Shown here: positions 16,283-36,631 of the stretch, one piece after another
Layout of the letters: every line of letters begins with the position of its first letter
How positions within the stretch are numbered: position 1 is the first letter of the stretch
Source: Streptomyces sp. NBC_01551
Lineage (GTDB): Bacteria; Actinomycetota; Actinomycetes; Streptomycetales; Streptomycetaceae
Assembly (NCBI RefSeq): GCF_026339935.1
Contig: NZ_JAPEPX010000005.1
Span: 1 to 36,631, forward strand
DNA: 36,631 nt
Reading direction: 5' to 3'
Notes under the pieces: model-generated
The model's database searches: none
The model's input: only the letters and a program-made list of their open reading frames with translations
What the model was told of the DNA's origin: nothing
Translations under genes and position numbers: made by a program

Positions 16283-16298
16283 TAAGAACGTTCTAAGA
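16283..16298. repeat. Left attachment-site core (attL) of the integrated element
   Basis: The 16-mer TAAGAACGTTCTAAGA occurs here and again at 36616-36631 in the same orientation, 20.3 kb apart. It lies 24 bp upstream of the MurG-like start codon and about 110 bp from the integrase stop, the usual position of an attachment core for a tyrosine-recombinase element. Its centre AGAACGTTCT is a perfect palindrome. With flanks it is CTWAGAACGTTCTWAG. It is not part of a tRNA gene here. Confidence 0.8.
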
Positions 16299-16366
16299 GC
16301 CGATCCGGCGGCCACAGCGGGTAGCCGCAGCTCAGAGCCTCCCCACCACGCCCGCGCCCGCCCAGA

Positions 16367-16393
16367 GGGAGCCAATCCGGGAGCCACGAGCCA
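16367..16393 (+). repeat. Tandem GGGAGCCA sites, probable integrase arm-type sites (left)
   Basis: GGGAGCCA at 16367-16374 and 16379-16386 (12-bp period), followed by a partial copy GAGCCA at 16388-16393. The same pair with the same 12-bp period occurs next to the right end (36481-36500), plus a third copy at 36547-36554. Position between core and integrase gene fits arm-type binding sites. That role is inferred. Confidence 0.6.
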
Positions 16394-16406
16394 TACTTGG
16401 ACGGTC

Positions 16407-17591
16407 TTACGGCGCTTCGGCGTCGCCGTCGTGAACACGGCCGAAGATCTCGTCCATCGCCTCGGCGCCTTCGGTGATAACGGGCCGGATCTGCTTGCGG
16501 TACACGCGTTCCGTCGTATTGCTCCCCTTATGCCCGACCAGCCGGGAAATCGCTTCGATGGGCACCCCGTGGTCGGAGAGCAGGGACACGAAGCTCGTCC
16601 TCAGCTCCCGGGTCGTCCACTCTCCCGGATTACTGAACCCGGCTTCCTTCAGCAGCGAGCGCAGGCTGATGCGCACTCCGCTGGCGTCCATCACACGGCC
16701 CACCCTCGATGGAAAGACGAGGCCCTGCTCAGTCCAGGTCTTGCCGGCGGCTTTGAACTTGGCCTGCTGCCGCTCCCGATGCCCCTCCAGCACCTCCACC
16801 GCCTGCTTCGGCATAGCCAGAGACCGCCGGCTCCTCCGCGTCTTCGTGTCCCCGGTCCTTCGCACGGACCGCCACACGTCGATGTGCGGCTTACTGCCGT
16901 CGTCCGGCGCGGTGTGGACGTGGGCCCAGGTCAGGGGACGCGTCTCCTCCGGCCGCGTTCCCACCAGGAGCGACAAGACCACGTACACGTGGATCCACTT
17001 CCCTTCCTCGGCGCTCAGCAGCGCGGTTGCCTGCTCCAGGGTCAGGGACTTGCTGGGCCGACCGGGCCTCCCCTCCGGCACCGCGACCAACTCGGCCACG
17101 TTGCGCGTTGCCCGGCCGCGCCTCTGCGCATGCGCAATGGACCGCCGGAGGACCGAAAGCAGCAGCCGCAGCGAACTGGTGGCCAGCACCTCGGCCTTCT
17201 CGTCAAGCCAGTCGTCCAGCGTGTCCGCCTCCAGCACACGTACCTTGGCCGCGCCGAGGGACGGGTAGATGTGCGTCTCGGCCAGGTACCGGTAGGTCTC
17301 CAGGCTCTTGGGAGCCCTGCCCTTGAGGCCCTGCGCCAACCAGGTCTCTACGGCCTGCTTCACGGTGTAGTGGGCAGGCGCCTTGGCTCCCTGCTCCAGC
17401 TCCTTGCGGAGCTCCCGCAGCTTCCGCCGCACTTCGGTCTTCGTCTTGCCGGACACCTTGGGACGGTGGCGCTTCCCCGCCGGGGTGTAGCCCAGCGAAA
17501 CGGCCCCGATGAAGCGCTCCTTGGACTTGTCCCAGTAGATCGAGTCCTCGCCGTTGGCTGCCTTCCGGCCCGGCGCGCTCTCGTTGTCCAT
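16407..17591 (-). CDS. int: Tyrosine recombinase integrase
   Basis: 394-residue intact site-specific recombinase that would integrate and, with the excisionase, excise the element. N-terminal SAM-like arm-binding part (GEDSIYWDKSKERFIGAVSLGYTPAGKRHRPKVSGKTKTEV), core-binding helical domain (TVKQAVETWLAQGLKGRAPKSLETYRYLAETHIYPSLG), then the catalytic domain: Arg in LLVGTRPEETRPLTW, Lys in TKTRRSRRSL, the HxxR box as TRELRTSF (His replaced, as in several streptomycete integrases), His in RLVGHKGSNTT and Tyr in ERVYRKQIRPVI. The ATG at 17591 has AAAGG 7 nt upstream. An ATG/GTG further upstream lacks a site. A GGGGCCGC hairpin lies between it and the excisionase gene. Confidence 0.95.
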   Translation of the reverse strand: MDNESAPGRKAANGEDSIYWDKSKERFIGAVSLGYTPAGKRHRPKVSGKTKTEVRRKLRELRKELEQGAKAPAHYTVKQAVETWLAQGLKGRAPKSLETYRYLAETHIYPSLGAAKVRVLEADTLDDWLDEKAEVLATSSLRLLLSVLRRSIAHAQRRGRATRNVAELVAVPEGRPGRPSKSLTLEQATALLSAEEGKWIHVYVVLSLLVGTRPEETRPLTWAHVHTAPDDGSKPHIDVWRSVRRTGDTKTRRSRRSLAMPKQAVEVLEGHRERQQAKFKAAGKTWTEQGLVFPSRVGRVMDASGVRISLRSLLKEAGFSNPGEWTTRELRTSFVSLLSDHGVPIEAISRLVGHKGSNTTERVYRKQIRPVITEGAEAMDEIFGRVHDGDAEAP

Positions 17592-17614
17592 CTGGCACCT
17601 TTCAAGCATGAGGA

Positions 17615-17644
17615 CGGGGCCGCACCGGCATCGGTGCGGCCCCG
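17615..17644 (-). terminator. GGGGCCGC hairpin between xis and int
   Basis: Perfect 13-bp stem (17615-17627 with 17632-17644), four-base loop, no T tract. Same core as hairpins at 21772, 22600 and 30000. It could attenuate integrase expression from the upstream operon. Confidence 0.65.
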
Positions 17645-17661
17645 TGATGGGTTGGTTGCTG

Positions 17662-17868
17662 CTACGCGGCGGCCTGCGCCTCGCACTTGAGGAGTTCGAC
17701 GTACTCGTCTACGTACTCGGTGGGTACGAGCCGTCGCCTGCCGACGCGGACAGTCCGCAGGCGACCGAGGCGAATCTCCTCGAACGCTGTGGAGCGGCCG
17801 ACGTTGAGCAGTTCTGCGGCTTCTTCCACGCTGTGTAGCCGCCTCTCGGGTACGACCATCAGTGCCAC
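17662..17868 (-). CDS. xis: Excisionase, AlpA/MerR-like helix-turn-helix
   Basis: 68 residues from GTG 17868, with GGAAGGAA about 9 nt upstream. An in-frame extension further upstream to 18012 lacks a ribosome site and has non-protein-like composition. The core RRLHSVEEAAELLNVGRSTAFEEIRLGRLRTVRVGRRRLVPTEYVDEYVELL is the typical excisionase winged helix-turn-helix that bends att DNA and directs the integrase to excision. It lies directly upstream of int in the same direction, as in pSAM2-like elements. Confidence 0.9.
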   Translation of the reverse strand: MALMVVPERRLHSVEEAAELLNVGRSTAFEEIRLGRLRTVRVGRRRLVPTEYVDEYVELLKCEAQAAA

Positions 17869-17940
17869 GTGATGACGTTCCTTCCGATCCGTGTCTGTTG
17901 TCAGTCGTGCGACTCCAGCCCTGCCGGAGGGCCGGAATCG

Positions 17941-18188
17941 CTGACAGAACTGACAGAACCTCGCCATGTAGCCCCTGACCTGCGGTTTTGGGTGGTTTTC
18001 CCCGCGTGACAAAACCTCAAAAAACTCTGACAGAACCTCGAAAACCTAGGTTCTGTCAGCCCGGTCGGCTCGCCCGAAGCGAGGTTTTTTGAGTTCTGTC
18101 AGAGTTTTCGGAGGTTCTGTCAGAGCCCCGAAAGTGCCCGTTTTCGCAGGTCACAGGGCTGGTCGGGAGGTTCTGTCAGTTCTGTCAG
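17941..18188. repeat. Symmetric array of eight CTGACAGAAC repeats (candidate origin or operator)
   Basis: CTGACAGAAC occurs at 17941-17950, 17950-17959 and 18027-18036. Its complement GTTCTGTCAG occurs at 18050-18059, 18093-18102, 18114-18123, 18170-18179 and 18179-18188. Tandem head-to-tail pairs stand at both outer ends in opposite orientation, and the central two copies form a close inverted repeat around an AT-richer stretch. A-rich and T-rich runs (CAAAAAACTC, GGTTTTTTGAG) flank the centre. The array fills the gap between the Rep helicase stop and the excisionase. I infer iterons of the replication origin. A repressor-binding region for xis/int is the alternative. Confidence 0.65.
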
Positions 18189-18203
18189 TGGGTTGGGGGG
18201 TTT

Positions 18204-19745
18204 TCAGACGGCGGGGGTGATGCGGGGGTGGGTCTCGTAGCGGGGGGAGGGCGGCCGGCCGCCGCGTGCGGTGCGGGGCGGCGGGGGCTGCTGACGAACC
18301 CAGCCGTGTTCCTCCAAGAGGTCCAGGGCGGGGTCGAGGTCGCTCATGGAGGGGAACTCGCTGCGGGGCATCGCGCGGAACAGGTCGCGTTTGGTGAAGG
18401 ACTCGGTTCGGGACTCGCTCAGGTGGGTCAGCACCGTGTGGGCGGCTGCCTGGGCGGGGTCGGCCTTCATCGCGTTGAAGACGTCGAGGGCGTGGGCGGT
18501 GAAGTAGTCCCCGAGGCTAGTAGCGGCGGCCATGGTTTCGGCGGTGATCGGCCGGGTCCAGGCGTCCTCGGGGTGGGCGGCGAGGTGGAGGAGTCCGGCG
18601 AGGCGGGCGACGGCGCCGTCGCGCTTGCTTGCCCAGTTCACGATCGGTGCGAGGGTCCCGTCCTTGCGCAGGCGGGATTCCGTGACGCGCTGGTAGGCGA
18701 GCAGGACGGCGTCCGCCTCGGGGGTGAGGGTGAGCGCGGCGGTCTCGGTCCAGGCCGCGAGGGTCAGGGCCAGGTGCCCGAGCTTGCGGGCGTAGGTTTC
18801 GGCTGTTCCGGGGCTGAGGAGTTCAGGGGTGAGATTCCGGTAGCCGACGAGGGATTCGGGCTTGGAGTAGAGGAACCGGGCGAGCAGGCCGCGTCCGTCG
18901 GCGCCCTTGATCTGCCCGATGGCGTCGAGGACCTCCGGCTGGATGGCAAGGCCCATGGTGATGGCGGGGTTCTCGATGTACTGGGGGTCTCTGGCCTGCC
19001 GGTTGACGCGGGCCATGTCGCCAGCGTGGCCCTTGAGGAAGATCCCCATGTTCGGGACACCGGAGTAGCGTCCGGCGATGATCTCGAAGATCTCGCCCTC
19101 CGGGGAAAGGATCGAGATCCGCCCGTCCTGCTGGGCGAGGAGGGTGGTCAGGCTTTCGGCGGTGATGTCGTCGGCGACGAGCTGCGGCTCGGCCGGGACG
19201 ACAGCCCGCTCGGCGGCCTCGGAGAGCGCGACGGCCTGGGCGGTCAGGCCAGCCAGCTTGTCGTCTTCGGCATTGGCCGCCAGCTTCTCGGCCTTCTCGG
19301 CGGCAGCCTTCGCGATGCGCGCGGAAGCGGCCGCCTCGGTCCGCTGGGGCGCGGTGAGTTCGCTGAGGGCTTTCTCGGCGGCGAGCAGGGGCTTGGTCAT
19401 GAGCCCGAACACGGCGCTCTTGCGGTTGCCGGGCGGCAGGGCGACGGCGGTGTAAAGGTTGACCGGTTCGCTCCACTGCCCGCGCACGGTCACGGTGAGG
19501 CGTCCGCCGGCGGCGGTGCCGATCACGGCGAGAGCGAGACACCCTGCGAGGTCGACGGGCGTCTGCGTCTCCTCCGCGACACCGGCCGTCATGGCGGCGA
19601 GCCAGTCGGGCAGGGCGTCCACAGGAAACACGGGGAGCTGTCCGCGCGGGTTGAGGGGTACGGGCTCGTCCCACACGGGACCGGTGATGTCCTCCGGGGT
19701 CATCTCGTCGAACCCGGCCCACAGCTCAGGATCGTGCGGACTCAT
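18204..19745 (-). CDS. DUF3987 (YfjI-like) Rep helicase/primase-associated protein
   Basis: 513 intact residues. The protein shows the DUF3987 layout: an N-terminal part with DALPDWLAAMTAGVAEETQTPVDLAGCLALAVIG, a nucleotide-loop-like LPPGNRKSAVFG (degenerate Walker A, GNRKS), an acidic/Ala-rich coiled insert at about residues 135-190, LVADDITAESLTTLLAQQDGRISILSPEGEIFEIIAGRYSG, and IFLKGHAGDMARVNRQ. The C-terminus has a helix-turn-helix-like end (TKRDLFRAMPRSEFPSM..). With the upstream prim-pol it would form the element's replication module. ATG start overlaps the preceding stop (ATGA). Function by family and context. Confidence 0.8.
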   Translation of the reverse strand: MSPHDPELWAGFDEMTPEDITGPVWDEPVPLNPRGQLPVFPVDALPDWLAAMTAGVAEETQTPVDLAGCLALAVIGTAAGGRLTVTVRGQWSEPVNLYTAVALPPGNRKSAVFGLMTKPLLAAEKALSELTAPQRTEAAASARIAKAAAEKAEKLAANAEDDKLAGLTAQAVALSEAAERAVVPAEPQLVADDITAESLTTLLAQQDGRISILSPEGEIFEIIAGRYSGVPNMGIFLKGHAGDMARVNRQARDPQYIENPAITMGLAIQPEVLDAIGQIKGADGRGLLARFLYSKPESLVGYRNLTPELLSPGTAETYARKLGHLALTLAAWTETAALTLTPEADAVLLAYQRVTESRLRKDGTLAPIVNWASKRDGAVARLAGLLHLAAHPEDAWTRPITAETMAAATSLGDYFTAHALDVFNAMKADPAQAAAHTVLTHLSESRTESFTKRDLFRAMPRSEFPSMSDLDPALDLLEEHGWVRQQPPPPRTARGGRPPSPRYETHPRITPAV

Positions 19746-20089
19746 GCGGCTTCCTTTCCCTCAGCGAGCAGGGGGCACTGGGTGCGATGCCGGTCGTGGT
19801 CGGCGATCAGGGCGAGGGCTCGGGCCTGTCCCGCGGCGAACAGGTCCCTGCCGCACGCGCACCAGGACCGGACGGACGGCGTGGTGCCGCGTCCGGGGGC
19901 GGTGATGTGGAGCCAGGCGACGGGCCGGCGCCCGTCGCCGGCGTGCGCGTCAGGGCGAAGTACTGAAGGGACGCCTTCGGCGACGCCCTCCGGGGCGCCC
20001 AGCTTGGCCTGCCGCGACGGCTGCTCGGCGTCCTCGGCAGCGGGGTGTTCGAGAGGGCTCTTAGAGGCAACGGGGAGGCGGGCGTTCAT
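19742..20089 (-). CDS. Small hypothetical protein with Cys/His motif
   Basis: 115 residues. The first 50 are low-complexity and basic. The C-terminal half reads WLHITAPGRGTTPSVRSWCACGRDLFAAGQARALALIADHDRHRTQCPL, where CAC, a His in DHDRH and a C eight positions on could bind one zinc. Start and stop both overlap neighbours by four bases (ATGA at 20086-20089 and 19742-19745), so it is translated together with prim-pol and the helicase, suggesting an accessory replication role. No family known to me. Confidence 0.7.
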   Translation of the reverse strand: MNARLPVASKSPLEHPAAEDAEQPSRQAKLGAPEGVAEGVPSVLRPDAHAGDGRRPVAWLHITAPGRGTTPSVRSWCACGRDLFAAGQARALALIADHDRHRTQCPLLAEGKEAA

Positions 20090-21012
20090 GCCGCCCTCCG
20101 GCTGCCAGCGGGGTTGTTGGCGATCGACCAGTCCAGACCCCGGGCGATGACGTCGTCGTAGTAGCGCTCCGACTCGGTGGCGTTGCCCGCCACCGCGCTA
20201 CTAAGAGCCTGCTCAACCTCCACGCGGGTCAGGTCGCCCGACGCGACGAACCGCCCCAGAGCCCTCGCGGCCCTGAGCAGCGTGTCGTTGCGGGTTCCGT
20301 CTCCGGCATGGGCGACGTTGCGTACTTCGTTGTCCAGGGCCGCTTTCGCGTACCGGGATCCCTTCACTGTCTGGGGCATCGGTGCGTCCCTGACGGGCTT
20401 GCGCCTGGCTGTCAGCGCGTCGGCGAGCCATTCGGGCAGTGGGATGGGGCTGATGTTGTCCAGGACCGTGTAGGCGCCGTCCGGGGTGCTGCTGCCGGGG
20501 GCGACGACGTATCCGCCCCAGCCGCGGGTGTCGATGTGCTTGCCGAGACGTCCGGCGGTGGTGCCGAGCCGGGCCCCGGCGGGCTGGGTGAAGTACAGGT
20601 GCTGCCCGCCGCGCGCGGTCCGGACGCGGTAGGTGGTGGGGACGGCCTGTCCGGAGCGCTCGCAGAGCGCCTCGAAGGTGGTTACGCCGTCAGGCGTACC
20701 CTCTTCGTCTGTCGGCTTGAGCATGTCGAGGTCGACGACGAGCAGCCCGGACGGGCCCGTCGCGATCCCGATGTTGTACGGAGCATGGGTCCACGCGGCT
20801 GCGATCAGGTCGGGATCGGTGGTCGCGCGCTGTTCCGGCGTGCGGTGACCGTTCACGCACCGGCCGGTGCCGGGGCAGCGGGCCTGTGCGTGGCCGGCGG
20901 GTCGCTTGTCGCGGGGGCGGACCGGGAAGACGTGCCAGCCACGTTCGGTCGCCGCCATGGCGTGGGCGAGCAGGTCCAGGCCGGGAAGGTCGATGCTGGG
21001 CAGGTCGCTCAC
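20086..21012 (-). CDS. Bifunctional DNA primase/polymerase (prim-pol)
   Basis: 308 residues from GTG 21012, which overlaps the methyltransferase stop by four bases (GTGA). A longer in-frame reading upstream is antisense-like and rejected. Reads LAHAMAATERGWHVFPVRPRDKRPAGHAQA, CPGTGRCVNGHRTPEQRATTDPDLIAAAWTHAPYNIGIATG, LLVVDLDMLKP (the DxD metal site), TYRVRTARGGQHLYF, HIDTRGWGGYVVAPGS: the full prim-pol fold. The C-terminal helical part (GTRNDTLLRAARALGRFVASGDLTRVEVEQAL) is typical. In AICEs that lack RepSA, this protein starts replication of the excised circle. Confidence 0.9.
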   Translation of the reverse strand: MSDLPSIDLPGLDLLAHAMAATERGWHVFPVRPRDKRPAGHAQARCPGTGRCVNGHRTPEQRATTDPDLIAAAWTHAPYNIGIATGPSGLLVVDLDMLKPTDEEGTPDGVTTFEALCERSGQAVPTTYRVRTARGGQHLYFTQPAGARLGTTAGRLGKHIDTRGWGGYVVAPGSSTPDGAYTVLDNISPIPLPEWLADALTARRKPVRDAPMPQTVKGSRYAKAALDNEVRNVAHAGDGTRNDTLLRAARALGRFVASGDLTRVEVEQALSSAVAGNATESERYYDDVIARGLDWSIANNPAGSRRAA

Positions 21013-21734
21013 GCCGCCACCTCCAGAAGGGCGCGGGTGAGGAACCGGGTGCCGATCCACTCGCTGTAGGCCGGGGGGATCGCCTCGGTCAGCTCCTCGT
21101 GCACGTCGGTCCAGTCGATGCCCATGGCCTGCTGCATCTCGGGGACCGACGCCTTGCCGCCGCCCTTGCCGTAGGCGGCGACGTACGGGCCGTCGTGGTA
21201 CTTGCCGTGCCGCCAGCTGCGCACCCGTCCCCGGTGCTTCAGGTGCTCGGGCTTTGCGGTGCTCCAGCCGCCGAGTTCGAAGTTGCGGTGCCTCAGCACG
21301 CCCAGGCCGAACATCTCCCCGCACAGGGTGATGTCCTTGCGGACGTCGGCCTTTCCGTTGGGCTGCTCGATCACGTACGGCAGACCGGAGGCGTCCAGGA
21401 GTTCGCGGGTGGGGGCGACGAGGTCCTTGTGGGTGCCGCCCCAGCCCATGGCCTGGTTGGTGCCGACGGTCAGGGCGCATCCGTGCTGGCAGGGCGGGGA
21501 GGCGTGGATCGCCGAGTACGCGGCGATCTCCCCCGACTCGATCAGGGCGGCGAGGACGGTCAGGGCGTCGCCCTGCCGGAACGGGAACGGGTAGCGGGGG
21601 CGGGGGGCGATATCGACGCCCTCGACCGCGAACCCGGCCCGGTGATAGCCCATCGCCGCCCCGCCGGCGCAGCAAAACAGATCCAGTAAGGCGGGACGCT
21701 CGCGGTCTCGCCGAATGTCGGCGGTGTGGGTCAT
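21009..21734 (-). CDS. DNA (cytosine-5) methyltransferase, phage/plasmid type
   Basis: 241 residues from ATG 21734, with GGAGG 8 nt upstream. Motif I is LLDLFCCAGGAAMGYHRAGF (AdoMet), motif IV is ASPPCQHG with the catalytic Cys, motif VI reads YVIEQPNG (EN is replaced by EQPNG), motif VIII LRHRNFELG, and the C-terminus MGIDWTDVHEELTEAIPPAYSEWIG. The target-recognition part is short. No restriction endonuclease is nearby, so it is an orphan, probably protecting the element from host restriction or marking its DNA for replication. Its stop overlaps the prim-pol start (GTGA), linking methylation to replication. Confidence 0.88.
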   Translation of the reverse strand: MTHTADIRRDRERPALLDLFCCAGGAAMGYHRAGFAVEGVDIAPRPRYPFPFRQGDALTVLAALIESGEIAAYSAIHASPPCQHGCALTVGTNQAMGWGGTHKDLVAPTRELLDASGLPYVIEQPNGKADVRKDITLCGEMFGLGVLRHRNFELGGWSTAKPEHLKHRGRVRSWRHGKYHDGPYVAAYGKGGGKASVPEMQQAMGIDWTDVHEELTEAIPPAYSEWIGTRFLTRALLEVAA

Positions 21735-21771
21735 GCTGGTGTCCTCCAGTTCAGTTGGATGTGCTGGTTGA

Positions 21772-21815
21772 CGAGGGCGGCCCCGGTTCATTGGCGTGAG
21801 AGGGGGCCGCCCTCG
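21772..21815 (-). terminator. GGGGCCGC hairpin upstream of the methyltransferase
   Basis: Perfect 13-bp stem (21772-21784 with 21803-21815), 18-nt loop. Lies between the stop of the gene ending at 21822 and the methyltransferase start. Confidence 0.6.
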
Positions 21816-21821
21816 GCGCGT

Positions 21822-22517: not shown

Positions 22518-22599
22518 GGGGTTCTCCTCAGTGCTGAGTGAAGGTGCGGCTGCCGCCCACCGGACATCCCGGTGGCGGTGATGGACTCAATCGGCAGAA

Positions 22600-22638: not shown

Positions 22639-22661
22639 GTTGTGTCTGCGGGGCGGGGAGC

Positions 22662-22817: not shown

Positions 22818-22831
22818 GGGCGGCTCCAGCC

Positions 22832-23290
22832 TCAGATGTTTGAGTGGTGTGCGCGCTGGATGGCGGCCTCCCACACGCTGCGGACCTGTGCTCCGGTGTG
22901 GGAGTCGTTCCAGGAGGGGATCGACTCCCACTGCTTGCCGTGCTGGTGGCGGGCCTCGTCCAGGAGGAGGTTCCCGGCGTCCCGGTAGGCGGCGTTGCGG
23001 GCGCCGGCCGCTGCGCGCAGTGCGCCGATGGAGCAGCGGGCGCCCTCGGGGTGGATGAGCCGGTGCTTGGCCCAGCCGTGGGTGTCGAGGAAGGCCAAGG
23101 CGTCGGTCAGCGTCCTCTCGACAACGCCGGGCCGGTGCACGGGCGGGGCGGCGAGGACGGCGGGGCCCGGCGCGGGCGCGGCGGGGACCGCGGGGGCGAC
23201 GGGTTCCGGGGTGGGGTCGAGGAGCTGGAACGCCTTCGCGTACAGGTCCTGGTCGACGGGGGCGAAGTGGGTGTCGGTGCGGGTGGTCAT
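22832..23290 (-). CDS. DUF6197 family protein
   Basis: 152 residues, ATG 23290 with GGAGG 5 nt upstream. An N-terminal Pro/Ala-rich tail (residues 28-55) precedes the domain LTDALAFLDTHGWAKHRLIHPEGARCSIGALRAAAGA.., DAGNLLLDEA, WNDSHTGAQVRSVWEAAIQRA. The CSIGAL and WND..V..L(V)W blocks are those of DUF6197, frequent in streptomycete plasmids and ICEs, function unknown. The ATG overlaps the TraB stop by four bases (ATGA). Confidence 0.75.
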   Translation of the reverse strand: MTTRTDTHFAPVDQDLYAKAFQLLDPTPEPVAPAVPAAPAPGPAVLAAPPVHRPGVVERTLTDALAFLDTHGWAKHRLIHPEGARCSIGALRAAAGARNAAYRDAGNLLLDEARHQHGKQWESIPSWNDSHTGAQVRSVWEAAIQRAHHSNI

Positions 23291-25446
23291 GCTGCCCTCC
23301 ACAGGCCGCTCTCGTTGGTGATCTCGTTTCGCTTCTTCAGCTCGGACAGGCGAGGCCTGATGTTCTTTGCGGACGTGCCCAGCTTTCGGGCGATCGTCTC
23401 GGCAGTCATGGGGATGGATTCCTGTTGCAGGAGTTCGAGGATTCGCGGCTTGATCAGCTCCTGTCCGTCCACGCCTGCGGGGCCGGCGGGGTCCGTCTGG
23501 GCCCGCTGGTGCGGGACGGGCGGGCTCTGCTGTGCCTTGGCGAGGAGGTCGGCGAGGCTGCCGACCAGGTTCTTGCCGCGCTGGTCGACCACCGGGGTCT
23601 GCGCGATCGCCTCCCGCAGGCGCCAGGCCTCGCAGTCCTCGACGGCGACCGGCGGCAGGCCGTCAGCGAGGGAGGCAGGCGGCACGTCCAGGTGCAGGGA
23701 GCGGAACTGGACGGCCTGGGATCCGGGGGTGAGGAGGTAGCCGAGGCCGAAGGTGCCGTCCTCGGGCTTGGCGGCGGCTTCAGTGTTCAGGCCGCTCATG
23801 TCCCGGTCGGCGACCTTGGCGTACTGGCCTGGCCACGAATCGGGGATCATCGACAGGTCGATGCCCTCCGCGCCCTGGACCGCGTTCGCCCCGACCAGGG
23901 AGCCCTGGCCCTTGGCGCAGCGCAGGAAGACCGCGCCGCCGCCGATCAGCAGCTGGGAGCGGATGATCGAGGAGTTGCCGAGGTCTTCGGCCAGCGGGGT
24001 CTGGGTGGCCAGGACGACGCCGATCCCGCGCTTGAGGGACCGGCGGGTGAGCTGCTCGACGATCGCTTTGGCTTCCGCGTGGTACTGGGAGGAGGCCGCG
24101 AGCAGCATGTGTGCTTCGTCGATGACGATCAGGGTCAGTGGGTCGGTGAAGGGGAAGGCCGGGGAGCGGTAGCGGGCTTCGCGGTCGAGCATCAGTGCGT
24201 AGGCCAGGCGCAGGGCGCCCATTGCCTCGTCCAGCCCGTCCCCGCAGTGCGCGGTCAGGGGTGCTCCGGCGATGGTTCCGGCCTGCGGCGAGGACAGGAT
24301 CACCGCGATACGCGACTTGTGGGCGGAGAGCAGGATCTGTTCCAGCACCCCGGACTTCCCGGAGCGGGACCCGCCCACCAGGTACAGGTGCCGGGCGCCG
24401 GACCCGGGCTGAGCCAGGGGGACCAGGGCGGCCCGTGCGTCGATGTAGGTGCCCAGGCGGACGTATCCGCGCGAGTCCATGGCCAGCTCGTCCACGACCG
24501 TGGAGAGCATCGTGCCGTGCATCAGCGCGTGCTCCTTCATCACGCGCACCCCCATCTGCGAGGGCTTGTCAGTCGGGGCGAGAGCGACCTGGATCGTCTC
24601 CAGGTGCAGGTTCCCCGCGAGGTCCTGGAGGTTGACGGTCCCAATCGCCTTCCGGTCGCGGGTGGCGATCCCCTCCCAGTCCAGGGGCCCGTCGTAGCGG
24701 GTGAGGGCCAGGGTGGTGCCGGGCATCGCTCCTTCCGGCACGGCGACGTACGCGGCCCACAGCTCCTCGGGAGTCGTGGGCGCGTCGCCAGCCGAGATCT
24801 GCGGCGCTGCCGACGACTTCATGAGGTGGACGGTGACGGGCAGCGCGTTCGGCGCGTAGTGCTTGGGGTCGCCCAGCTCCACCTGGGAGACGGGGATCTG
24901 GTAGACAGCCGCGATGTCGGCCGCCTTCACCTTCACCTGCTGGCCCTGGGGCAGCGTGATGATCCCGGTGAACGACACATGATCGGTCCCGGCGTCGAGG
25001 GCGAGGTGCTCAAGGCCAGCCCCGGCCTGGATCAGCTTGCGGCCCTCGGTCTGGGTCGGGCCGGAGATGAACTCCGCCCACCAGGCACTGATCAGCTGCG
25101 CCTGCGAGGACTGACCCGCAGCCGCAGTCGTGGCAGGCAGCGCCGGGTGCTCGCCGGCGGTGTTTCGCCGGTGGGCCAGGACGGCCGCCCCGGCCGGGAC
25201 GGCGAGCCCGAGGGCGAACAGCGGGTCCATACCGGACGCGAGGACCTGGTGAGCGGCGATGCCACACCCGGTGGCCGTGATCCCACAGGCGATGAGGGAG
25301 CGCAGGGCGGGGGCGGAGGCATTGACGGCCCACGCCCCCGCTCCGGCCGCCGCGGCGGCGAGAGCGGACCAGGGGCCGACGGCGACAGATGCCACCGCGA
25401 GAGCGGCGGGCGCGTACTGGATGAACTGTGCTCGGGTCGGCCCCAT
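23287..25446 (-). CDS. traB: FtsK/SpoIIIE-type DNA translocase, TraB-like conjugation protein
   Basis: 719 intact residues. Two to three membrane segments at about residues 10-90 (YAPAALAVASVAVGPW.., SLIACGITATGCGIAAH, LFALGLAVPAGAAVLA). The motor domain carries Walker A LVGGSRSGKSGVLEQILL, Walker B LTLIVIDEAHMLLAAS and GIGVVLATQTPL. The C-terminus (EESIPMTAETIARKLGTSAKNIRPRLSELKKRNE) is a winged helix, corresponding to the clt-binding gamma-like domain of TraB. TraB forms hexamers at hyphal tips and moves double-stranded plasmid DNA, unlike type IV systems. No relaxase is present, in agreement with this mode. GGGAG lies about 8 nt before the ATG. Confidence 0.93.
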   Translation of the reverse strand: MGPTRAQFIQYAPAALAVASVAVGPWSALAAAAAGAGAWAVNASAPALRSLIACGITATGCGIAAHQVLASGMDPLFALGLAVPAGAAVLAHRRNTAGEHPALPATTAAAGQSSQAQLISAWWAEFISGPTQTEGRKLIQAGAGLEHLALDAGTDHVSFTGIITLPQGQQVKVKAADIAAVYQIPVSQVELGDPKHYAPNALPVTVHLMKSSAAPQISAGDAPTTPEELWAAYVAVPEGAMPGTTLALTRYDGPLDWEGIATRDRKAIGTVNLQDLAGNLHLETIQVALAPTDKPSQMGVRVMKEHALMHGTMLSTVVDELAMDSRGYVRLGTYIDARAALVPLAQPGSGARHLYLVGGSRSGKSGVLEQILLSAHKSRIAVILSSPQAGTIAGAPLTAHCGDGLDEAMGALRLAYALMLDREARYRSPAFPFTDPLTLIVIDEAHMLLAASSQYHAEAKAIVEQLTRRSLKRGIGVVLATQTPLAEDLGNSSIIRSQLLIGGGAVFLRCAKGQGSLVGANAVQGAEGIDLSMIPDSWPGQYAKVADRDMSGLNTEAAAKPEDGTFGLGYLLTPGSQAVQFRSLHLDVPPASLADGLPPVAVEDCEAWRLREAIAQTPVVDQRGKNLVGSLADLLAKAQQSPPVPHQRAQTDPAGPAGVDGQELIKPRILELLQQESIPMTAETIARKLGTSAKNIRPRLSELKKRNEITNESGLWRAA

Positions 25447-30669: not shown

Positions 30670-30777
30670 GACGGCTCTCCGACGAGCGCGGTAACCCGGA
30701 AGGGCTCCCATAAGAACGGGACACGCCGGACGCCTAGAGGTACTGCGTGCACATCGGAGTTGGGCCCTTGCGAGCCA

Positions 30778-30820
30778 TCTGGTGCGCACCAGAAGCATGG
30801 CATCTGGTGCGCACCAGATG
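30778..30820. promoter_or_regulatory. Twin palindromic operators
   Basis: A 16-bp perfect palindrome (30778-30793) and a 20-bp perfect palindrome, CATCTGGTGCGCACCAGATG (30801-30820), have centres 25 bp apart and share TCTGGTGCGCACCAGA. They sit between the minus-strand operon leader and the XRE regulator start. A dimeric regulator binding twice is the obvious reading. The XRE or GntR protein of the element are the candidates. Confidence 0.75.
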
Positions 30821-30907
30821 CAAGCCCTTGGTTCGTTCGGGCCTGCTGGCGTTCCTCCGGTGTGACTTCAGGAAACGGCCCAGACGGGGTGTCTCGGTAG
30901 CCAACAG

Positions 30908-30932
30908 GGGTTAACCTCAAGGGTGTTAACCC
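30908..30932. promoter_or_regulatory. Inverted repeat near the XRE regulator promoter
   Basis: GGGTTAAC (30908-30915) and GTTAACCC (30925-30932) form an 8-bp perfect inverted repeat with a 9-bp spacer, about 64 bp upstream of the start codon at 30996. Typical size for an autoregulatory operator. Confidence 0.55.
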
Positions 30933-30995
30933 GCTCCCACCTGCGGCGATTCGGTTAAGCCCTGGCAGGTGGCACGGCCATCGGAGGCGATGCAC

Positions 30996-32126
30996 GTGGG
31001 CAAGGGATTACGAGATGTTCGTACGGCGCGGGGATGGTCGCAGGAGCGACTGATCTTCGAGATAGAGCGCTACGCGCGGCAGCACATGCTGAACGTCGCG
31101 TCCAGCGCGAGCCTGAAAACCTACGTGTCCGAGTGGGAGAACGGCCGGCGGGCCATCACGGAGCGATACGCCGTGATCCTCCGGCCACTCCTCGGGGTTA
31201 CAGACGCCGAGTTGGGCGGGGAGCGTGCACACGCGGTCCCCCAGCAAGCTGACGGCTACGAGGACCTGTTGAGTCGGATCGACTCGGCGCGGAGCGTCAG
31301 CGACTCCATGGTGAGCACCTTCATGGACCAGACCGAGCTACTACGGACCATGGACCGGCAGATGGGTGCATCCGGCCTGGTGGACCAGATGGGCGGACAT
31401 CTGGCGAGGATGGAGGACGCGCTCACCTTCGCCGTCCTGCCAGGAACGCGTCGCCCCATCGCGACGGCATTGGCTGGGGCAGCGACATTGGCGGCTTGGC
31501 AGGCGCTGGACGCCGGTTCCGTGGAACGCGCCTGGCGGCACTACGAGCTGGCGAAACGAGCCGCGCAGGATGCGGACGCACCCCAGTACTTGGCTCACGC
31601 CATGGGCGAGCAGGCATACGTCCTGGGTGATGCTGGCCGACCCGAGCTGGCGGTGGAGCTGATTCGCGACGCGCAGCGTACGCACCCGGAGCGGCAGTCA
31701 CCCCGCCTTCGCGCATGGTTGAGCGCGGCCGAAGCCGAGCTGTGCGCCGCTGCCGGTATGCACGACGATTCCAGGGATGCGCTCGACCGGGCGGCAGCCT
31801 CACTGCCGGAAGGTGCGGATGCCCGCGACCCGGACATGCTGAGCATCTTCCTGAATGCTGACCACCTGGCGCGCTGGCGGGGAAACGTACTGGCACTCCT
31901 GGGCGACAGCTCGGCCATGGACGACCTCTATGTATCGCTCCAGACGACGGACCCCACGTTCGTCCGTGCCAAGGCAGGTCTGCACAGCGACCTGACGCAG
32001 GCGCACCTTGCCCGCGGCGAGTTCGACGAAGCCCGCTCGAACCTTCAACAGGCACGCCTGCTGGCGAACCGCACGGGGTCCGTGCGGCATCGCCGGCGTG
32101 TGGAACTGCTTACGGGGCGGCTGTAG
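30996..32126 (+). CDS. XRE-family regulator with TPR-like C-terminal domain
   Basis: 376 residues from GTG 30996 (GGAGG 8 nt upstream). Starts at GTG 30969 or ATG 30990 are in frame but badly spaced. The N-terminal helix-turn-helix reads VGKGLRDVRTARGWSQERLIFEIERYARQHM, TYVSEWENGRRAITERYAVILRPLLGV. Residues about 130-376 are tetratricopeptide-like helices (ATLAAWQALDAGSVERAWRHYELAKRAAQDA, AHAMGEQAYVLGDAGRPELAVELI.., LTQAHLARGEFDEARSNLQQARLLANRTG). Such proteins often sense small peptides or signals and control element functions. It is divergent from the transfer operon and convergent with the GntR-Nudix gene, overlapping it by 17 bp. Confidence 0.85.
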   Translation: MGKGLRDVRTARGWSQERLIFEIERYARQHMLNVASSASLKTYVSEWENGRRAITERYAVILRPLLGVTDAELGGERAHAVPQQADGYEDLLSRIDSARSVSDSMVSTFMDQTELLRTMDRQMGASGLVDQMGGHLARMEDALTFAVLPGTRRPIATALAGAATLAAWQALDAGSVERAWRHYELAKRAAQDADAPQYLAHAMGEQAYVLGDAGRPELAVELIRDAQRTHPERQSPRLRAWLSAAEAELCAAAGMHDDSRDALDRAAASLPEGADARDPDMLSIFLNADHLARWRGNVLALLGDSSAMDDLYVSLQTTDPTFVRAKAGLHSDLTQAHLARGEFDEARSNLQQARLLANRTGSVRHRRRVELLTGRL

Positions 32127-32961
32127 CCCGCGACGCGAGGACGTGAAGGAGGGCGACCAGGGTTCCTGACCCCATGAGTTTCCCTTCGGCCATGAGTGCG
32201 GGGATGTCCGCCAGGGGTACCCAGGCGATCGTCCCGGCCTCCTCAATGTCCGTGGGTTCGCCCACCTTCACCGCACCACGTGCCACGAAGATCTCGTGGG
32301 GCGAGTCGACCATGCCGATCATGGGCTGGTACGTCACGACGTGCTCGACGTTCGTCGGGCGCCAGCCGGTCTCTTCCTCGGTCTCCCGCGCCGCCGTGGT
32401 CGCCGCGTCCTCGCCTTCGTCCACGATCCCGCCGGGAAGTTCCCAACCCCACTGCTGCGGGACGAAGCGGTATCGCCAGAGCATCAGGACGCGCTGCTGC
32501 TCGTCGATCACGGCGGTGATCGCCACATGGTGGAGGCGTACCACGTGGTGCTCGAACCGCTCGACCCCGGGCGGCTCGACGTCGACGAGGTCGAGGTTCA
32601 CCCACCGGTTCTCATAGACGGTCCTGCTGCCGTGGATCGTCCATGGCTCCAGCTCTGCTGGCGTGGGGACGGTCTCGCCACCCACGACTCGGTACGAACT
32701 GCGGTCGTACGCCCTGATGAGCCGCTCGCTCGCCAGTCGTGCGAGTACCTGGCGGAGGGCGGTACGGCCGATCTCCAGCTCAGCGCTCATGGTCCGCTCG
32801 GAGGGAAGCTTCTCGCCGGGCCCGTACTTGCCCGACTCGATCCAAGACCGGATCGTTTGGTAGACCCTCGTCGACTTCGGTCCCATCCTCAGAGCACTCT
32901 CCCCATTCGTCGGCTGGTGGTGCCCAGCGTAGTCGGGGGGAATCACGGAGGGCTCAGCCAT
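32110..32961 (-). CDS. GntR winged helix fused to a Nudix hydrolase
   Basis: 283 residues from ATG 32961 (AGGAG 8 nt upstream). An ATG six bases earlier is too close to it. Residues about 28-98 form a GntR HTH (STRVYQTIRSWIESGKYGPGEKLPSERTMSAELEIGRTALRQVLARLASERLI). Residues about 130-275 are a Nudix domain with box GGIVDEGEDAATTAARETEEETGW (G-x5-E-x7-RE-x2-EE-x-G) and the preceding LMLWRYRF.PQQWGWELPGG. In pSAM2 the same two activities are separate proteins: KorSA, a GntR repressor of replication and transfer, and Pif, a Nudix hydrolase that blocks redundant transfer. The Nudix residues needed for metal binding are kept, so catalysis is likely. Confidence 0.88.
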   Translation of the reverse strand: MAEPSVIPPDYAGHHQPTNGESALRMGPKSTRVYQTIRSWIESGKYGPGEKLPSERTMSAELEIGRTALRQVLARLASERLIRAYDRSSYRVVGGETVPTPAELEPWTIHGSRTVYENRWVNLDLVDVEPPGVERFEHHVVRLHHVAITAVIDEQQRVLMLWRYRFVPQQWGWELPGGIVDEGEDAATTAARETEEETGWRPTNVEHVVTYQPMIGMVDSPHEIFVARGAVKVGEPTDIEEAGTIAWVPLADIPALMAEGKLMGSGTLVALLHVLASRATAAP

Positions 32962-33014
32962 GCTCATCTCTCCTGGTCTGACGTGAGGACATCGCAAGGG
33001 TGGGCACCTCCGAG

Positions 33015-33058
33015 AGTACCCAGGGCGGGTGATGAACATGTCAAACGATCATGATCGT
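33015..33058 (-). promoter_or_regulatory. Promoter and palindromic operator of the GntR-Nudix gene
   Basis: On the minus strand a perfect TTGACA (33044-33039) has TACTCT about 20 bp downstream (spacing longer than ideal). Directly upstream lies the 14-bp palindrome ACGATCATGATCGT (33045-33058). An operator just upstream of the -35 box suits activation or autoregulation. Confidence 0.5.
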
Positions 33059-33753
33059 GGCCAACCTCTGGCCAGCAGGGGGACCGAGGGCAGGCGACGG
33101 AGCCAAAGGCCCCAGGTGAGGGCGGGGCGAGTGGCGCCTAGCGATCGGTCTTGAAGCCCTCGCGGTTTGCATTGGTGAGAGTTTCCCTGCTGGATCAAGC
33201 ACCCGGCTGCGCTCCGCTCCGCCGGGCGGGCTTCCCGGCTCCGCTCGGGGCGACGCTCCTGCCTTCGGCCCGCTCCGCCCCCGCTGCGCCGACGCCCGCC
33301 CCTACACCGGGATAGGCCAAAAGGCATGAGGCAGTCCCCCTACCGGCCGCCGGTTCCATCTGTCACCGACATGCCTCCGGCGGGGGCCTCCGGCTCCAGG
33401 ATGGCGGGGGCGCCGTTGGCGGGTGCTGGCCGAGCGGGGCTGATGCGGGGAACTCCCATCCCGTCCGCCATCGGCCCAGGACAAGCCCAGCAGACACGGC
33501 ACCGGGCGTCCAGGTCGTTCGTCCAGTTGGGCGCTCCACCTGGACGCCCGGCACCGCGCCCGCTCCACATGCGTGTGGGCCGACGGCAGACGGGATGGGA
33601 GTTGGGCGGGTATGTGGCTAGCGCCGCATTTCAGGTGCCGCAATCCGGCCAAACAGTGCAACTTTTCAGACTAGTTCGATAGCCTGACTGGGCCTCACGC
33701 GCCAGAGGCATCTGGATGCACTGGCACTGCTACCTCAACGGAGAGGTCTGCAC
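33059..33753. other. Non-coding stretch with GCTCCGCTCC-rich block and an inverted repeat
   Basis: No supported gene. 33200-33300 is a C/G-rich block built from GCTCCGCTCC/CGGGCGGGCTTCC segments, a kind of sequence I have seen repeatedly between streptomycete genes. A perfect 14-bp inverted repeat (33502-33515 with 33538-33551, 22-nt loop) follows. AT content rises near 33650-33690 where the promoter of the next gene should lie. Confidence 0.5.
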
Positions 33754-34200
33754 ATGGACGAAGTAAAGGCGCTGCCGGAGAACTACAGACCTGAGGTCAC
33801 CGAGCCTGTCTTGGACATGTACCTGGGCCTACTCGTCCCCCTGCTGGAGCTCGACGAAAGGAATCACATACCCGTCACCCTGACAGTGTCGGGCGCGGTC
33901 ATCTACGGCGAGCTGATCAGCTACGACGTCTGGAAGTCTGAGTGGGTCAAGCTCCTGCAAGAGAGCACCCAAGGTGCCGGCGTTGACGTCTTGGCCAAGT
34001 TTCCGCAGTCCGTAGACGACGTCCGGCAGGAGCTAGTCGATGCGGGTGAGCTTCACGTGCTTAAGTCGCCGCCTCGTTTCGTGCACCTGCGAGATGTGAG
34101 CATCCTGGGCGGTAGCCACAGCACCACAATCAACCACCGACTCTGGCGAGGGCGTCTGGCCGAAGTCTCTGGGTGGTCACTGGGCACACCTTCTTGGTAG
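33754..34200 (+). CDS. GvpU-like gas vesicle accessory protein homologue
   Basis: 148 residues, GGAGAGG seven bases before ATG 33754. Reads VLDMYLGLLVPLLELDERNHIPVTLTVSGAVIYGELISYDVW, then PPRFVHLRDVSILGGSHSTTINHRLWRGRLAEVSGWSLG. The VxGxxxxGxLIS centre and the (Y/F)xHLxDa...(W)WRGxIxxVxGxSxG end are the two blocks of GvpU. No other gas-vesicle gene is in the window, so it is probably used for something else or is orphan cargo. Its G+C and codon use are slightly lower than those of the transfer genes. Confidence 0.72.
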   Translation: MDEVKALPENYRPEVTEPVLDMYLGLLVPLLELDERNHIPVTLTVSGAVIYGELISYDVWKSEWVKLLQESTQGAGVDVLAKFPQSVDDVRQELVDAGELHVLKSPPRFVHLRDVSILGGSHSTTINHRLWRGRLAEVSGWSLGTPSW

Positions 34201-34484
34201 ACCAACAACGCAAGGCGCGGCATGCCAGATGCGTGCCAGTTCGAGCGGTAAATCGCGGCTAACAGTGGTCCCCAGAAAAATCCAACGGGCTCGGGACAGC
34301 GTCTGTTTGCCCAGGTCGGAGTGGCTGTCGGGCGTCGAAGATCGGTGATTCCCAAGCTCATGGCGTCCCGTCTTGCGGGCGGGCGTGCGCCCCTGAGCTT
34401 CGGTCGACCCCCTGTGCGCCCTCTTCATGTTCCACTGCCTGCGCCATCGTCGTGGTGCTGGCGAGGGCCGATGGAGGGGGCGAG

Positions 34485-34682
34485 ATGACGCAGCCGCTGT
34501 GCGGGGCGGCGACGCAGGATGGTCGCCGCTGCCGGAACAAGGCGATCACCGGGAGCGGGCAATGTTCAAAGCACCAGGGGGCCTGTGTTTTCGGCGTAAT
34601 GAATGAGAGCCACCGGGGCGGTGGTTTCGGGAGCCGGATTACTCCACTTGTGAAGGGGATGGACTGCGCAGGATGTCCATGA
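34485..34682 (+). CDS. Small protein with C-x8-C-x9-C-x2-H zinc-finger motif
   Basis: 65 residues, GGAGG upstream of ATG 34485. Reads TQPLCGAATQDGRRCRNKAITGSGQCSKHQGACVFG. The pattern CxAxTxxGxRCxNKAxxGxxxCxxHQ is a known short zinc finger in phage and plasmid proteins. After residue about 35 the sequence is not similar to anything and runs through a possible IS-end repeat (34618-34635), so the C-terminus may have been replaced by an insertion. Confidence 0.6.
   Translation: MTQPLCGAATQDGRRCRNKAITGSGQCSKHQGACVFGVMNESHRGGGFGSRITPLVKGMDCAGCP
34618..34635 (+). repeat. Left copy of an 18-bp inverted repeat, probable IS end
   Basis: GCGGTGGTTTCGGGAGCC here; its exact reverse complement is at 35868-35885. 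The pair brackets the istB fragment and the gene at 34925, as expected for the ends of an IS21-like insertion (these families have repeated terminal sequences). Confidence 0.5.
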
Positions 34683-34875
34683 TCGGCGGCGAGATCGGGA
34701 GCCACCCCAAGCGGGTGAGCTCGCCGATGAGCCGTGCGGGGTGGGAGTGTCCACGGCAGATCATGGCTGCCAGCCGATAGTTTGTGGGTCCCGGGCCCCG
34801 CTGGTCCGTGTCCCTGACAGGCGCGGTCTGGAAGGGCCCGGCCCCTGTCAGGCGTCGCCTTCCACAGACACCCAT
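34639..34875 (-). CDS. Possible small helical protein
   Basis: 78 residues from ATG 34875 with GAGG upstream. The end reads NYRLAAMICRGHSHPARLIGELTRLGWLPISPPIMDILRS, which has natural protein composition, third-position GC of about 75 percent, and a plausible helical-repeat form. The first 30 residues look less natural. It overlaps the end of the zinc-finger gene on the opposite strand, so only one of the two tails can be real. Function unknown. Confidence 0.35.
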   Translation of the reverse strand: MGVCGRRRLTGAGPFQTAPVRDTDQRGPGPTNYRLAAMICRGHSHPARLIGELTRLGWLPISPPIMDILRSPSPSQVE

Positions 34876-34924
34876 TCAGCGCCTCGGATCGCATGCAAGT
34901 TCCGCCTGATGTACCGTCCTGAGT

Positions 34925-35362
34925 ATGCCTAGTTCTGCTCCGGAATGGGTCTCCTACGCCGCCCTCGGTATGAGCGCTCTCACGCTGAGCTGGCAATCCG
35001 TGAGCTATTTCCGTTCTGGCCCGAGAATCAAGATTTCATGCCATACCATGAAGCATGGTGGAGAACAGTACCTGCTTGTGGCCACCACGAATCGAGGCCG
35101 CCTCGCCACCAGTCTTGAGGTCATCGGACTCTATCTACCGAACGTGCCGGGCGCCTACTTCTCCAGAGCAAGCCTTCCGCTCCCCAGCGCCGTGACGTCG
35201 CTGCCGCACGAGCTGAAACCACATTCAACAGCGAACTGGTACGTCATGCCATTGCACATCCAAGATTTTTGCACAAAGCATGAAGCTTCCGTTTCGGACG
35301 TGCGGCCATACGTATATGCGGCTAACAAGCGGCACGAGGGGAAGAAGCGCCTTCCGATTTGA
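34925..35362 (+). CDS. Membrane-anchored hypothetical protein
   Basis: 145 residues, ATG 34925, no strong ribosome site. One membrane segment at about residues 9-27 (YAALGMSALTLSWQSVSYF), then a mostly beta domain: PRIKISCHTMKHGGEQYLLVATTNRGRLATSLEVIGLYLP.. and LKPHSTANWYVMPLHIQDF. This arrangement occurs in small streptomycete membrane proteins of unknown role. Lower G+C than its neighbours suggests separate origin. Confidence 0.65.
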   Translation: MPSSAPEWVSYAALGMSALTLSWQSVSYFRSGPRIKISCHTMKHGGEQYLLVATTNRGRLATSLEVIGLYLPNVPGAYFSRASLPLPSAVTSLPHELKPHSTANWYVMPLHIQDFCTKHEASVSDVRPYVYAANKRHEGKKRLPI

Positions 35363-35471
35363 TGGGTGCTGGACCTCAGCCCTTCACGCAAATGACCTGC
35401 TTGAGCTTCGCAACGACCTCCACCAAGTCTCGGTGCTGTTCCATGAACTGCCCGATCGGCAGGGCGGCCAG

Positions 35472-35775
35472 TCAGCCTTTGCGGGCCTGACGCTCGTTCT
35501 GGGTTGCCTGGTAGCGGTAGGACTCGGTTCCGGTCTGGATCAGGGTGCAGCGGAAGGTGATCCGGTCGGCGATGGCGGCGCAGAGTCGCGGGTCACCGAA
35601 GGTCTTGTCCCACTCTGCAAACGGGGAGTTCGTGGCCACGGCGGTTGCCTTGCATTCCTCACGCTCGGTGAAAATCTGGAAGAGCAGCTTGGCGCCCTTC
35701 TTGTCCAGGTTCAGATACCCGAACTCGTCCAGGCAGAGAAGGTCGACCTTGCTGTAGCGGGCGATCACGGACGAC
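35472..35775 (-). pseudogene. istB: IstB-like ATPase fragment (IS21 family)
   Basis: Minus-strand residues SSVIARYSKVDLLCLDEFGYLNLDKKGAKLLFQIFTEREE, VATNSPFAEWDKTFGDPRLCAAIADRITFRC, TGTESYR match the C-terminal 90-100 residues of IstB, including Walker B (LLCLDEFGY). The Walker A half and istA are absent. The break is near 35775. With the 18-bp inverted repeats at 34618 and 35868 this is a decayed IS21-like insertion. Confidence 0.8.
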
Positions 35776-35838
35776 ACGGCCAAACAGTCCAACATCCCCA
35801 TTACGCCAACAGCGGCATGTCACACACCATCACACCAA

Positions 35839-36000
35839 GTGGCTCCCAAACTCACCGCCCAAACGCTGGCTCCCGAAACCACCGCCTCGTTGGCCTTACT
35901 TCAACCCGCTAGAAACAGGGCCTGGACCGCTTACGGAGTGACGCAGCGAAAGAAGAAGGAAGCTGAAGCGAAGATGCGGAAGTTGCGCAAGAAGAAGTGA
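35839..36000 (+). pseudogene. Possible Lys-rich C-terminal coding remnant
   Basis: An open plus-strand frame ends AWTAYGVTQRKKKEAEAKMRKLRKKK before TGA 35998-36000. The basic C-terminus looks like real protein, but the frame has no good start (first candidate GTG 35839) and its upstream part overlaps the IS end. Likely the 3' end of a gene cut by the insertion. Confidence 0.3.
35868..35885 (-). repeat. Right copy of the 18-bp inverted repeat, probable IS end
   Basis: Reverse complement of 34618-34635. On the minus strand it contains GGGAGCC, and another GGGAGCCA copy lies 27 bp away (35840-35847). See the left copy. Confidence 0.5.
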
Positions 36001-36233
36001 GCTCGCGCGGCCTATTCGTGGACCGCTGGGACTCTGTATGACCGCGCTAGGGATCTGAGCTGCTGAAACACGTGAGACGCACGGGGCCTCCGGAGCCGTG
36101 TGTGGATCGTCTGCTCCACCAGCGGCCACGGTCGCCCGTGCCGGCCCCGTCTCGGTGTGAATCCCCGCACGCGCCGTCGGCCAGCCAGCGCGCTCGGCGT
36201 GCTGGACTGGCGCTGGCACGGCAGGCTAGGGGC

Positions 36234-36461
36234 GTGGCGGACCAGACGGAAATCATCGTGCATCCGGTGTCCCCGAAGGGCGGCCGGAAGGTCACCGTGC
36301 ATGCGCTCGGCGTGGACGTGGACCTCGGGCGTGCGCACACGCCGAGGGACGTTGCCGAGTTCCTGCGTCGCGCCGGCCTGGAAGACGTGGACCTGAGCGA
36401 GGACGGGCCGATCACCTGGGAGGGCGGCGGCCCCGAAGTGTGGAAACGCCCCGATCCCTGA
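36234..36461 (+). CDS. Small acidic hypothetical protein next to attR
   Basis: 75 residues from GTG 36234. GGGG directly before it is a poor ribosome site, and a longer in-frame start upstream has Arg/Pro-rich shadow composition, so 36234 is favoured. Reads ADQTEIIVHPVSPKGGRKVTVHALGVDVDLGRAHTPRDVAEFLRRAGLEDVDLSEDGPITWEGGGPEVW. Compact alpha/beta composition, no known family. Located 155 bp from the right attachment core, outside the regulated block. Confidence 0.6.
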   Translation: MADQTEIIVHPVSPKGGRKVTVHALGVDVDLGRAHTPRDVAEFLRRAGLEDVDLSEDGPITWEGGGPEVWKRPDP

Positions 36462-36480
36462 GGGGCAGCGGTGGTGCTCG

Positions 36481-36554
36481 GGGAGCCAATCGGGGAGCCA
36501 CCGGAGGCAGCACAAGCCGGATCTGCCTGGACTGCCATGGACAGTGGGGAGCCA
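36481..36554 (+). repeat. GGGAGCCA sites near the right end, probable integrase arm-type sites
   Basis: Copies at 36481-36488, 36493-36500 (12-bp period, identical to the left pair) and 36547-36554. 17-19 of 20 bases around the pair match the left pair. They lie inside the element, between the last gene and the right core. Confidence 0.6.
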
Positions 36555-36615
36555 GAACCCTTGGGGTGGAAGGGCTCCACAACGCCGCTTCCTCAGCCCC
36601 TTCTTTCCCCCGGCT

Positions 36616-36631
36616 TAAGAACGTTCTAAGA
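36616..36631. repeat. Right attachment-site core (attR)
   Basis: TAAGAACGTTCTAAGA, identical to 16283-16298 and in the same orientation, at the very end of the window. The repeat may extend beyond it, so its true length cannot be measured here. Confidence 0.75.

Follow-up and report, generated by a model that had tools for sequence, protein, structure and literature searches.

According to PMC3218068, the vast majority of actinomycete integrative and conjugative elements (AICEs) with a tyrosine integrase lie at the 3' ends of tRNA genes, all members of the pSLS subfamily excepted, and another survey (PMC9513070) counts 36 tRNA, 14 coding and 1 intergenic site. We analyzed a stretch of 36,631 nucleotides of Streptomyces sp. 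NBC_01551, hereafter called the window, which is the entire contig C5 of its assembly. The window very probably carries an AICE-type integrative element, inserted through a 17-bp core that separates a MurG-like gene from an OmpR-family two-component operon read in the opposite direction. Comparison of sequences gave us the site, both junctions and the empty sites in relatives, two elements in tandem, the arm-like repeats of either end and related non-tRNA integrases, all of which point to this reading.

The AICEs pSAM2 and SLP1 (Ghinet et al. 2011, PMC3218068) share the layout of our element: genes for Int, Xis, Prim-Pol and Tra-like proteins form a single block, and int adjoins one of the att sites. 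Of the features by which the same paper defines an AICE, the window element has an integrase (PF00589) beside its att site, a Prim-Pol protein (PF09250) and flanking direct repeats. It differs from pSAM2 and SLP1 in that its core is intergenic and not at a tRNA 3' end, its repeat is 17 bp long and its transfer ATPase falls below the FtsK_SpoIIIE cut-off. GntR, NUDIX and NsdA-like regulators, KorSA and Pif are listed there as known for AICEs; in pSAM2, KorSA (GntR) and Pif (NUDIX) are separate named proteins, whereas the GntR and NUDIX domains of the window element are fused in one protein. The pSLS-type integrases are likewise reported to insert outside tRNA genes (PMC3218068, PMC4891635); none from S. 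laurentii was among the 120 homologs listed out of 4968. pSLS carries pJV1-like spdB genes, whereas profile searches gave no match to a Spd family among the window proteins, so that the Spd-like proteins named in the initial annotation are not supported. Non-tRNA targeting by one integrase subfamily is thus already in print. None of the papers listed by our literature searches describes an AICE at the control site of a two-component system.

The features which define the ends of the element are as follows.

15070..16259, minus strand: MurG-like glycosyltransferase gene (GT28; PF04101), the left neighbour, with its ATG at 16257-16259
16283..16299, plus strand: attL, TAAGAACGTTCTAAGAG, 17 bp, of which 16283-16298 is the 16-mer part
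16367..16387, minus strand: integrase-arm-like tandem pair, GTGGCTCCC-N3-TTGGCTCCC, near int
36481..36501, minus strand: integrase-arm-like tandem pair of the right end, with a third single copy near 36547
36616..36631, plus strand: attR, 16 visible bases up to the contig end; relatives predict G as the 17th base, followed by the response-regulator gene

The 16-mer TAAGAACGTTCTAAGA was found by a window scan at 16283-16298 and 36616-36631, both on the plus strand with 0 mismatches, and these element ends are its only two exact copies in the 7.05-Mb assembly; none was expected in 100 shuffles. When up to 3 mismatches were allowed, one extra match appeared, on the reverse strand at 16281-16296, overlapping the left copy. 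The length of the element from repeat to repeat is 20,333 bp. That is, the identical direct repeats of the initial annotation are real and unique in the assembly. Their length of 16 bp is what can be seen here, but in two relatives with both junctions visible, G643 and G725, the repeat is 17 bp, TAAGAA(C/G)GTTCTAAGAG. Since no sequence follows the second copy on the contig, the repeat must be regarded as at least 16 bp long, and we took the right flank from relatives for the same reason. No tRNA or tmRNA was found in the window by ARAGORN, and no Rfam family matched it at gathering thresholds. The insertion thus lies outside a tRNA gene, as first proposed, and the site in relatives lies between the MurG-like gene and the regulator.

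In order to find the site in other strains, we used the MurG-like 5' end (window 15900-16298) as the query, which gave some match in 46 of 61 genomes, our own included, and the loci of the 10 strongest relatives (E 2.2e-56 or better) were fetched. In all 10, the MurG-like gene is divergent from a gene start beyond a TCTTAGAACCTTCTTA-like motif, which in L029 has 4 mismatches. The divergent gene of G012 encodes an OmpR-family response regulator (PF00072 and PF00486) and is followed by a sensor kinase gene; the intergenic region of G012 is 72 bp with the start codons as read. A 531-bp query across the G012 site gave some match in 180 of 392 genus genomes, many of them in the regulator half only. 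By hand count, the match runs uninterrupted across the site in at least 53 of the 392, G012 included, and others show two adjacent pieces. The pattern CTAAGANCGTTCTAAGAG occurs in 10 of the same 392 genomes (our own lies outside this sample), once in nine and twice in G266 only; eight of the nine single copies are at the MurG/regulator site, and that of G129 is elsewhere. In a scan for the pattern TCTTAGANNNTTCTTA, each of four relatives had a single copy and our own genome (G000) had two; the second core of G266 falls outside this pattern. Empty sites with a single copy, in which the MurG-like 5' end is joined to other DNA, were what the initial annotation had asked for, and they exist in related species.

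Occupied sites were also found. In G643 the order is two-component genes, core, an element of 20,457 bp orthologous to that of the window, core, and the MurG-like gene; the two-component DNA (81% like G012) is at 2188612-2190448, the cores are near 2190497 and 2210954, and the MurG-like gene and beyond matched up to 2213183. In G725 there are three cores, at 1896140, 1912605 and 1940827, which bound 16,465 and 28,222 bp. Because there are three, we regard the G725 locus as two tandem elements between the same neighbours. Read in the orientation of the window, the two cores of G643 are both TAAGAAGGTTCTAAGAG and the three cores of G725 are all TAAGAACGTTCTAAGAG, and for this reason we define the repeat as 17 bp with one host-variable middle base. 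The integrase is 94% identical in G725 and G643. In a blastn comparison of the G725 array (L236-L239), the regulator-side element was without a TraB-like gene and the other had two copies.

After insertion, the MurG-like gene retains the core and 23 bases, and the regulator in G643, G725 and G266 retains the core and its own leader. The initial annotation placed the element upstream of the MurG-like gene, and the ATG does adjoin the left repeat, but the target is common to two divergent genes and not to MurG alone; the distance to the ATG is 23 bases and not 24.

In G266 the insertion at the site is 82.7 kb long (L178-L182, G266:C5:3261518-3344223), and none of the 19 window proteins searched at 1e-6 matched it. 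A stretch with 87% identity to the final 628 bp of the window does, however, adjoin the regulator-side core in G266. Giant frames of this insertion look like those of nonribosomal peptide synthetases (NRPSs). The picture is that of an NRPS-like 82.7-kb segment enclosed by two att cores, as though the site had captured a biosynthetic cluster. The insertions near the site in G317 (4.1 kb) and G110 (1.2 kb) leave the core intact on the MurG side, and no core-like repeat was found on their side away from MurG.

The window has two copies of GGCTCCC-N5-GGCTCCC, one at 16367-16385 and one at 36481-36499, against 0.01 expected, and thus at the element ends only. Of 12 elements examined, including those at tRNA-Pro and tRNA-Val, 11 have pairs with a 12-bp period (GGCCCCC allowed) at either end, next to the int-side core and just within the distal core, the exception being the truncated L071. 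Since single 7-mers are common inside the elements (2 to 15 in each), only the pairs were counted. Such pairs stand at the ends of each element in G643 and G725, and in G266 the regulator-side pair alone is left. Judged by sequence, they look like arm-type integrase sites, and the pair at 36481-36501 marks a true end of the element.

Next, the relationship of the integrase to those of other elements was analyzed in a quick tree of 48 of 58 rows (3 short rows, 5 duplicates and 2 under 370 aa were dropped), with the Shimodaira-Hasegawa-like approximate likelihood ratio test (SH-aLRT) as support and no bootstrap. The window integrase falls within a 14-member group (SH-aLRT 98), in which no tRNA pattern was found in 327 bp downstream. 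The neighbouring group consists of 15 tRNA-Pro rows and 3 non-tRNA rows. Scans of 36-40 kb of context gave a direct repeat of 16 to 49 bp for 8 of 10 members of the 14-member group, the next unrelated match in the same scans being 12 to 15 bp; the two members that gave none are G126 and G332, and G418 and the short loci L055, L057 and L059 likewise gave no direct repeat. The eight cores lie between genes or at gene edges when the frames are read in the joined flanks. There are two qualifications: the G266a core reaches about 7 bp into the end of a gene, and that of G238 is crossed by a doubtful frame. Because these eight cores lie between genes or at their edges, absence from tRNA genes is a trait of the group and not of this element alone. 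The genes which start near them presumably encode secreted proteins, an LPMO (lytic polysaccharide monooxygenase), and a SnoaL-like or membrane protein. The elements of G238, G214, G004, G018, G305, G266a and G390 share the integrase group and the arm pairs, and they occupy other non-tRNA sites with different cores, for example CTTACCTGAGAGGTAA and TTACGTGCGAGGTAATGCG. The tRNA-Pro elements of G064 and G009, with integrases 59-60% identical to ours, have the same arrangement of arm pairs with GGCCCCC for GGCTCCC, but they target tRNA-Pro(CGG) with a 45-bp repeat. We also observed TTACC-N5-GGTAA-like cores in several elements (L129, L037, L059, L071), and a similar small membrane-protein-like frame beside the core in G238, G004 and L071.

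What the core does for the host was considered from an alignment of empty sites, which has 39 rows from 36 genomes, three of them present twice; the rows were centred by best motif match, which favours the motif. TCTTA-N6-TCTTA, a direct repeat with an 11-bp period, is present in all 39 rows, and 11 of the 16 core positions are invariant, namely both TCTTA blocks and one A between them. The core had been described as palindromic. The perfect palindrome AGAACGTTCT does exist, but its AACGTT centre is a minority form (4 of the 39 rows), and it is the direct repeat that is conserved. Direct repeats about one helical turn apart are typical tandem sites of OmpR-family regulators. The sequence suggests that TCTTA-N6-TCTTA fits an OmpR-family operator better than a palindrome does. 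The core may instead be an ordinary promoter segment, with an integrase that moved to a conserved promoter. We consider this possible but less likely than not: only 23 bases separate the core from the MurG-like ATG, the region between the divergent genes is short, and operator binding is putative, but the invariant TCTTA blocks 11 bp apart beside an OmpR-family gene resemble the tandem sites described above. As a candidate binder, CutR was rejected, since the published CutR motif TAWATAAA (PMC12802291) does not fit the core.

The other features of the element are listed below.

16407..17609, minus strand: tyrosine integrase (PF00589, E=2.8e-14)
17662..18012, minus strand: excisionase-type helix-turn-helix (HTH) protein, start uncertain (PF12728; TIGR01764 excise, E=1.3e-12)
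17941..18188, no strand: mirrored groups of GTTCTGTCA/TGACAGAAC, eight copies in all, which may be iterons of an origin or an operator
18204..19745, minus strand: DUF3987 protein (PF13148, E=6e-100)
20086..21675, minus strand: Prim-Pol protein (PF09250, E=1.7e-45)
23287..25446, minus strand: TraB-like transfer ATPase of 719 aa, with two hydrophobic stretches near the N terminus, motifs like Walker A and B, and a weak match to an HTH domain at the C terminus
30969..32126, plus strand: NsdA-family regulator (NF053720, E=3.2e-42)
32110..33039, minus strand: GntR-NUDIX fusion (PF00392, PF00293), a possible KorSA/Pif-like regulator
36234..36461, plus strand: short right-end open reading frame (ORF), within the stretch kept in the G266 relic, no Pfam family

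The profiles agree with the initial annotation on the integrase, excisionase, Prim-Pol, DUF3987 and regulator genes, including the GntR-NUDIX and NsdA-family proteins. The core is about 110 bp from the int end. Integrase residues R219, K256, R337, H360 and Y370 are invariant across 17 aligned integrases, and we take them to be the catalytic residues. The DUF3987 protein is presumably a helicase-type replication protein, and residues 1-216 of the Prim-Pol ORF are without a match in G725. The GTTCTGTCA/TGACAGAAC groups lie at the xis start and before the end of the DUF3987 gene. The TraB translocase of the initial annotation is plausible from the Walker-like motifs and hydrophobic stretches but unproven, as PF01580 stays below its cut-off. 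The family alignment shows GGSRSGKSG and VIDEAHML, and several homologs are named 'type IV secretory system conjugative DNA transfer family protein' in their source and many 'hypothetical protein'. Its AlphaFold model (pLDDT, the predicted local distance difference test, 37) was too poor for use, and a sequence search against solved structures gave nothing relevant. By a simple hydropathy scan, two ORFs besides the transfer ATPase have transmembrane-like stretches. Elsewhere in our genome (L217, G000:C1:3111730-3113883) another TraB-like protein is encoded, which is 89% identical to that of the element. The C-terminal piece of an IS21 IstB ATPase (35472-35801; PF01695, E=8.3e-25) lies in a lower-GC stretch of the element.

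In the left neighbour, the MurG-like frame is broken in the window assembly (tblastn against G012 in two frames), and 1-base length differences were seen against G266; this is either a pseudogene or a sequencing error. The G012 ortholog falls just under the TIGR01133 cut-off.

That the locus is an immobile relic which only resembles an AICE seems unlikely to us. The IstB piece near the right end would suit such a relic, and excision is only predicted; on the other side, the int, xis, rep and tra frames are open with the presumed catalytic residues kept, both ends are present, and the integrase is as similar in G725 and G643 as given above. That the 16-mers are chance or an assembly overlap, with the element continuing past 36631, is very improbable: the contig does end exactly at the second copy, but in G643, G725 and G266 the orthologous right ends are followed by the response-regulator gene after the corresponding repeat, which contradicts a continuation of the element, and the arm pair lies at the right end.

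Several points weigh against an AICE-type element at a two-component site. The right junction is invisible in its own genome, where the best whole-regulator match elsewhere is of 69% DNA identity; in that search twelve small contigs read N, and the two-component genes are unassembled, withheld or lost in this assembly. The regulator was identified by Pfam in G012 only, and in G643 and G725 through a 78-81% DNA match to G012. The two cores of G266 differ by one base and no integrase is left there. Three integrases labelled non-tRNA fall inside the tRNA-Pro group, and the fork uniting both groups has an SH-aLRT of only 80. The transfer protein reached E=0.029 and 14.3 bits against PF01580 FtsK_SpoIIIE (cut-off 24), and for the putative operator, the conserved repeat could be a core promoter instead. 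An assembly branch near the contig end would be expected from either an excised circle or a second element in tandem, such as that of G725. DNA like that 3' of the G012 kinase lies on the large contig C1 (L080, G000:C1:4681144 onward) with different left neighbours, which is either a synteny break or an assembly problem.

For the AICE-type element, the following mechanism can be proposed. The tyrosine integrase would recombine the 17-bp core of the circle, which has tandem GTGGCTCCC/TTGGCTCCC arm sites on its flanks, with the identical 17 bp of the chromosome, in the short region from which the MurG-like gene and the OmpR-family two-component operon diverge. Integration would duplicate the core and leave one copy each to the MurG-like gene and the regulator. 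We infer three further points, namely a role of the core as the operator of the regulator, binding of the arm repeats by the integrase, and excision and conjugation of the element. We speculate further, as a doubtful possibility, that the host response regulator binds the core in attL, attR and attP, so that the two-component signal gates integration and excision, and that this integrase group is specialized in operators of transcription factors. By analogy, and just as doubtfully, operators might then be conserved, duplicable landing sites, as tRNA genes are for other integrases.

Because empty sites, an orthologous insertion and a tandem array are all known for it, the locus offers a site-resolved case of AICE integrases whose targets are gene-control regions and not tRNA genes. 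Should the core be an operator, one DNA site would serve both the mobility of the element and a signalling system of its host. The conserved site, aligned in 39 rows and present once in each of four relatives, could serve as a vector integration site.

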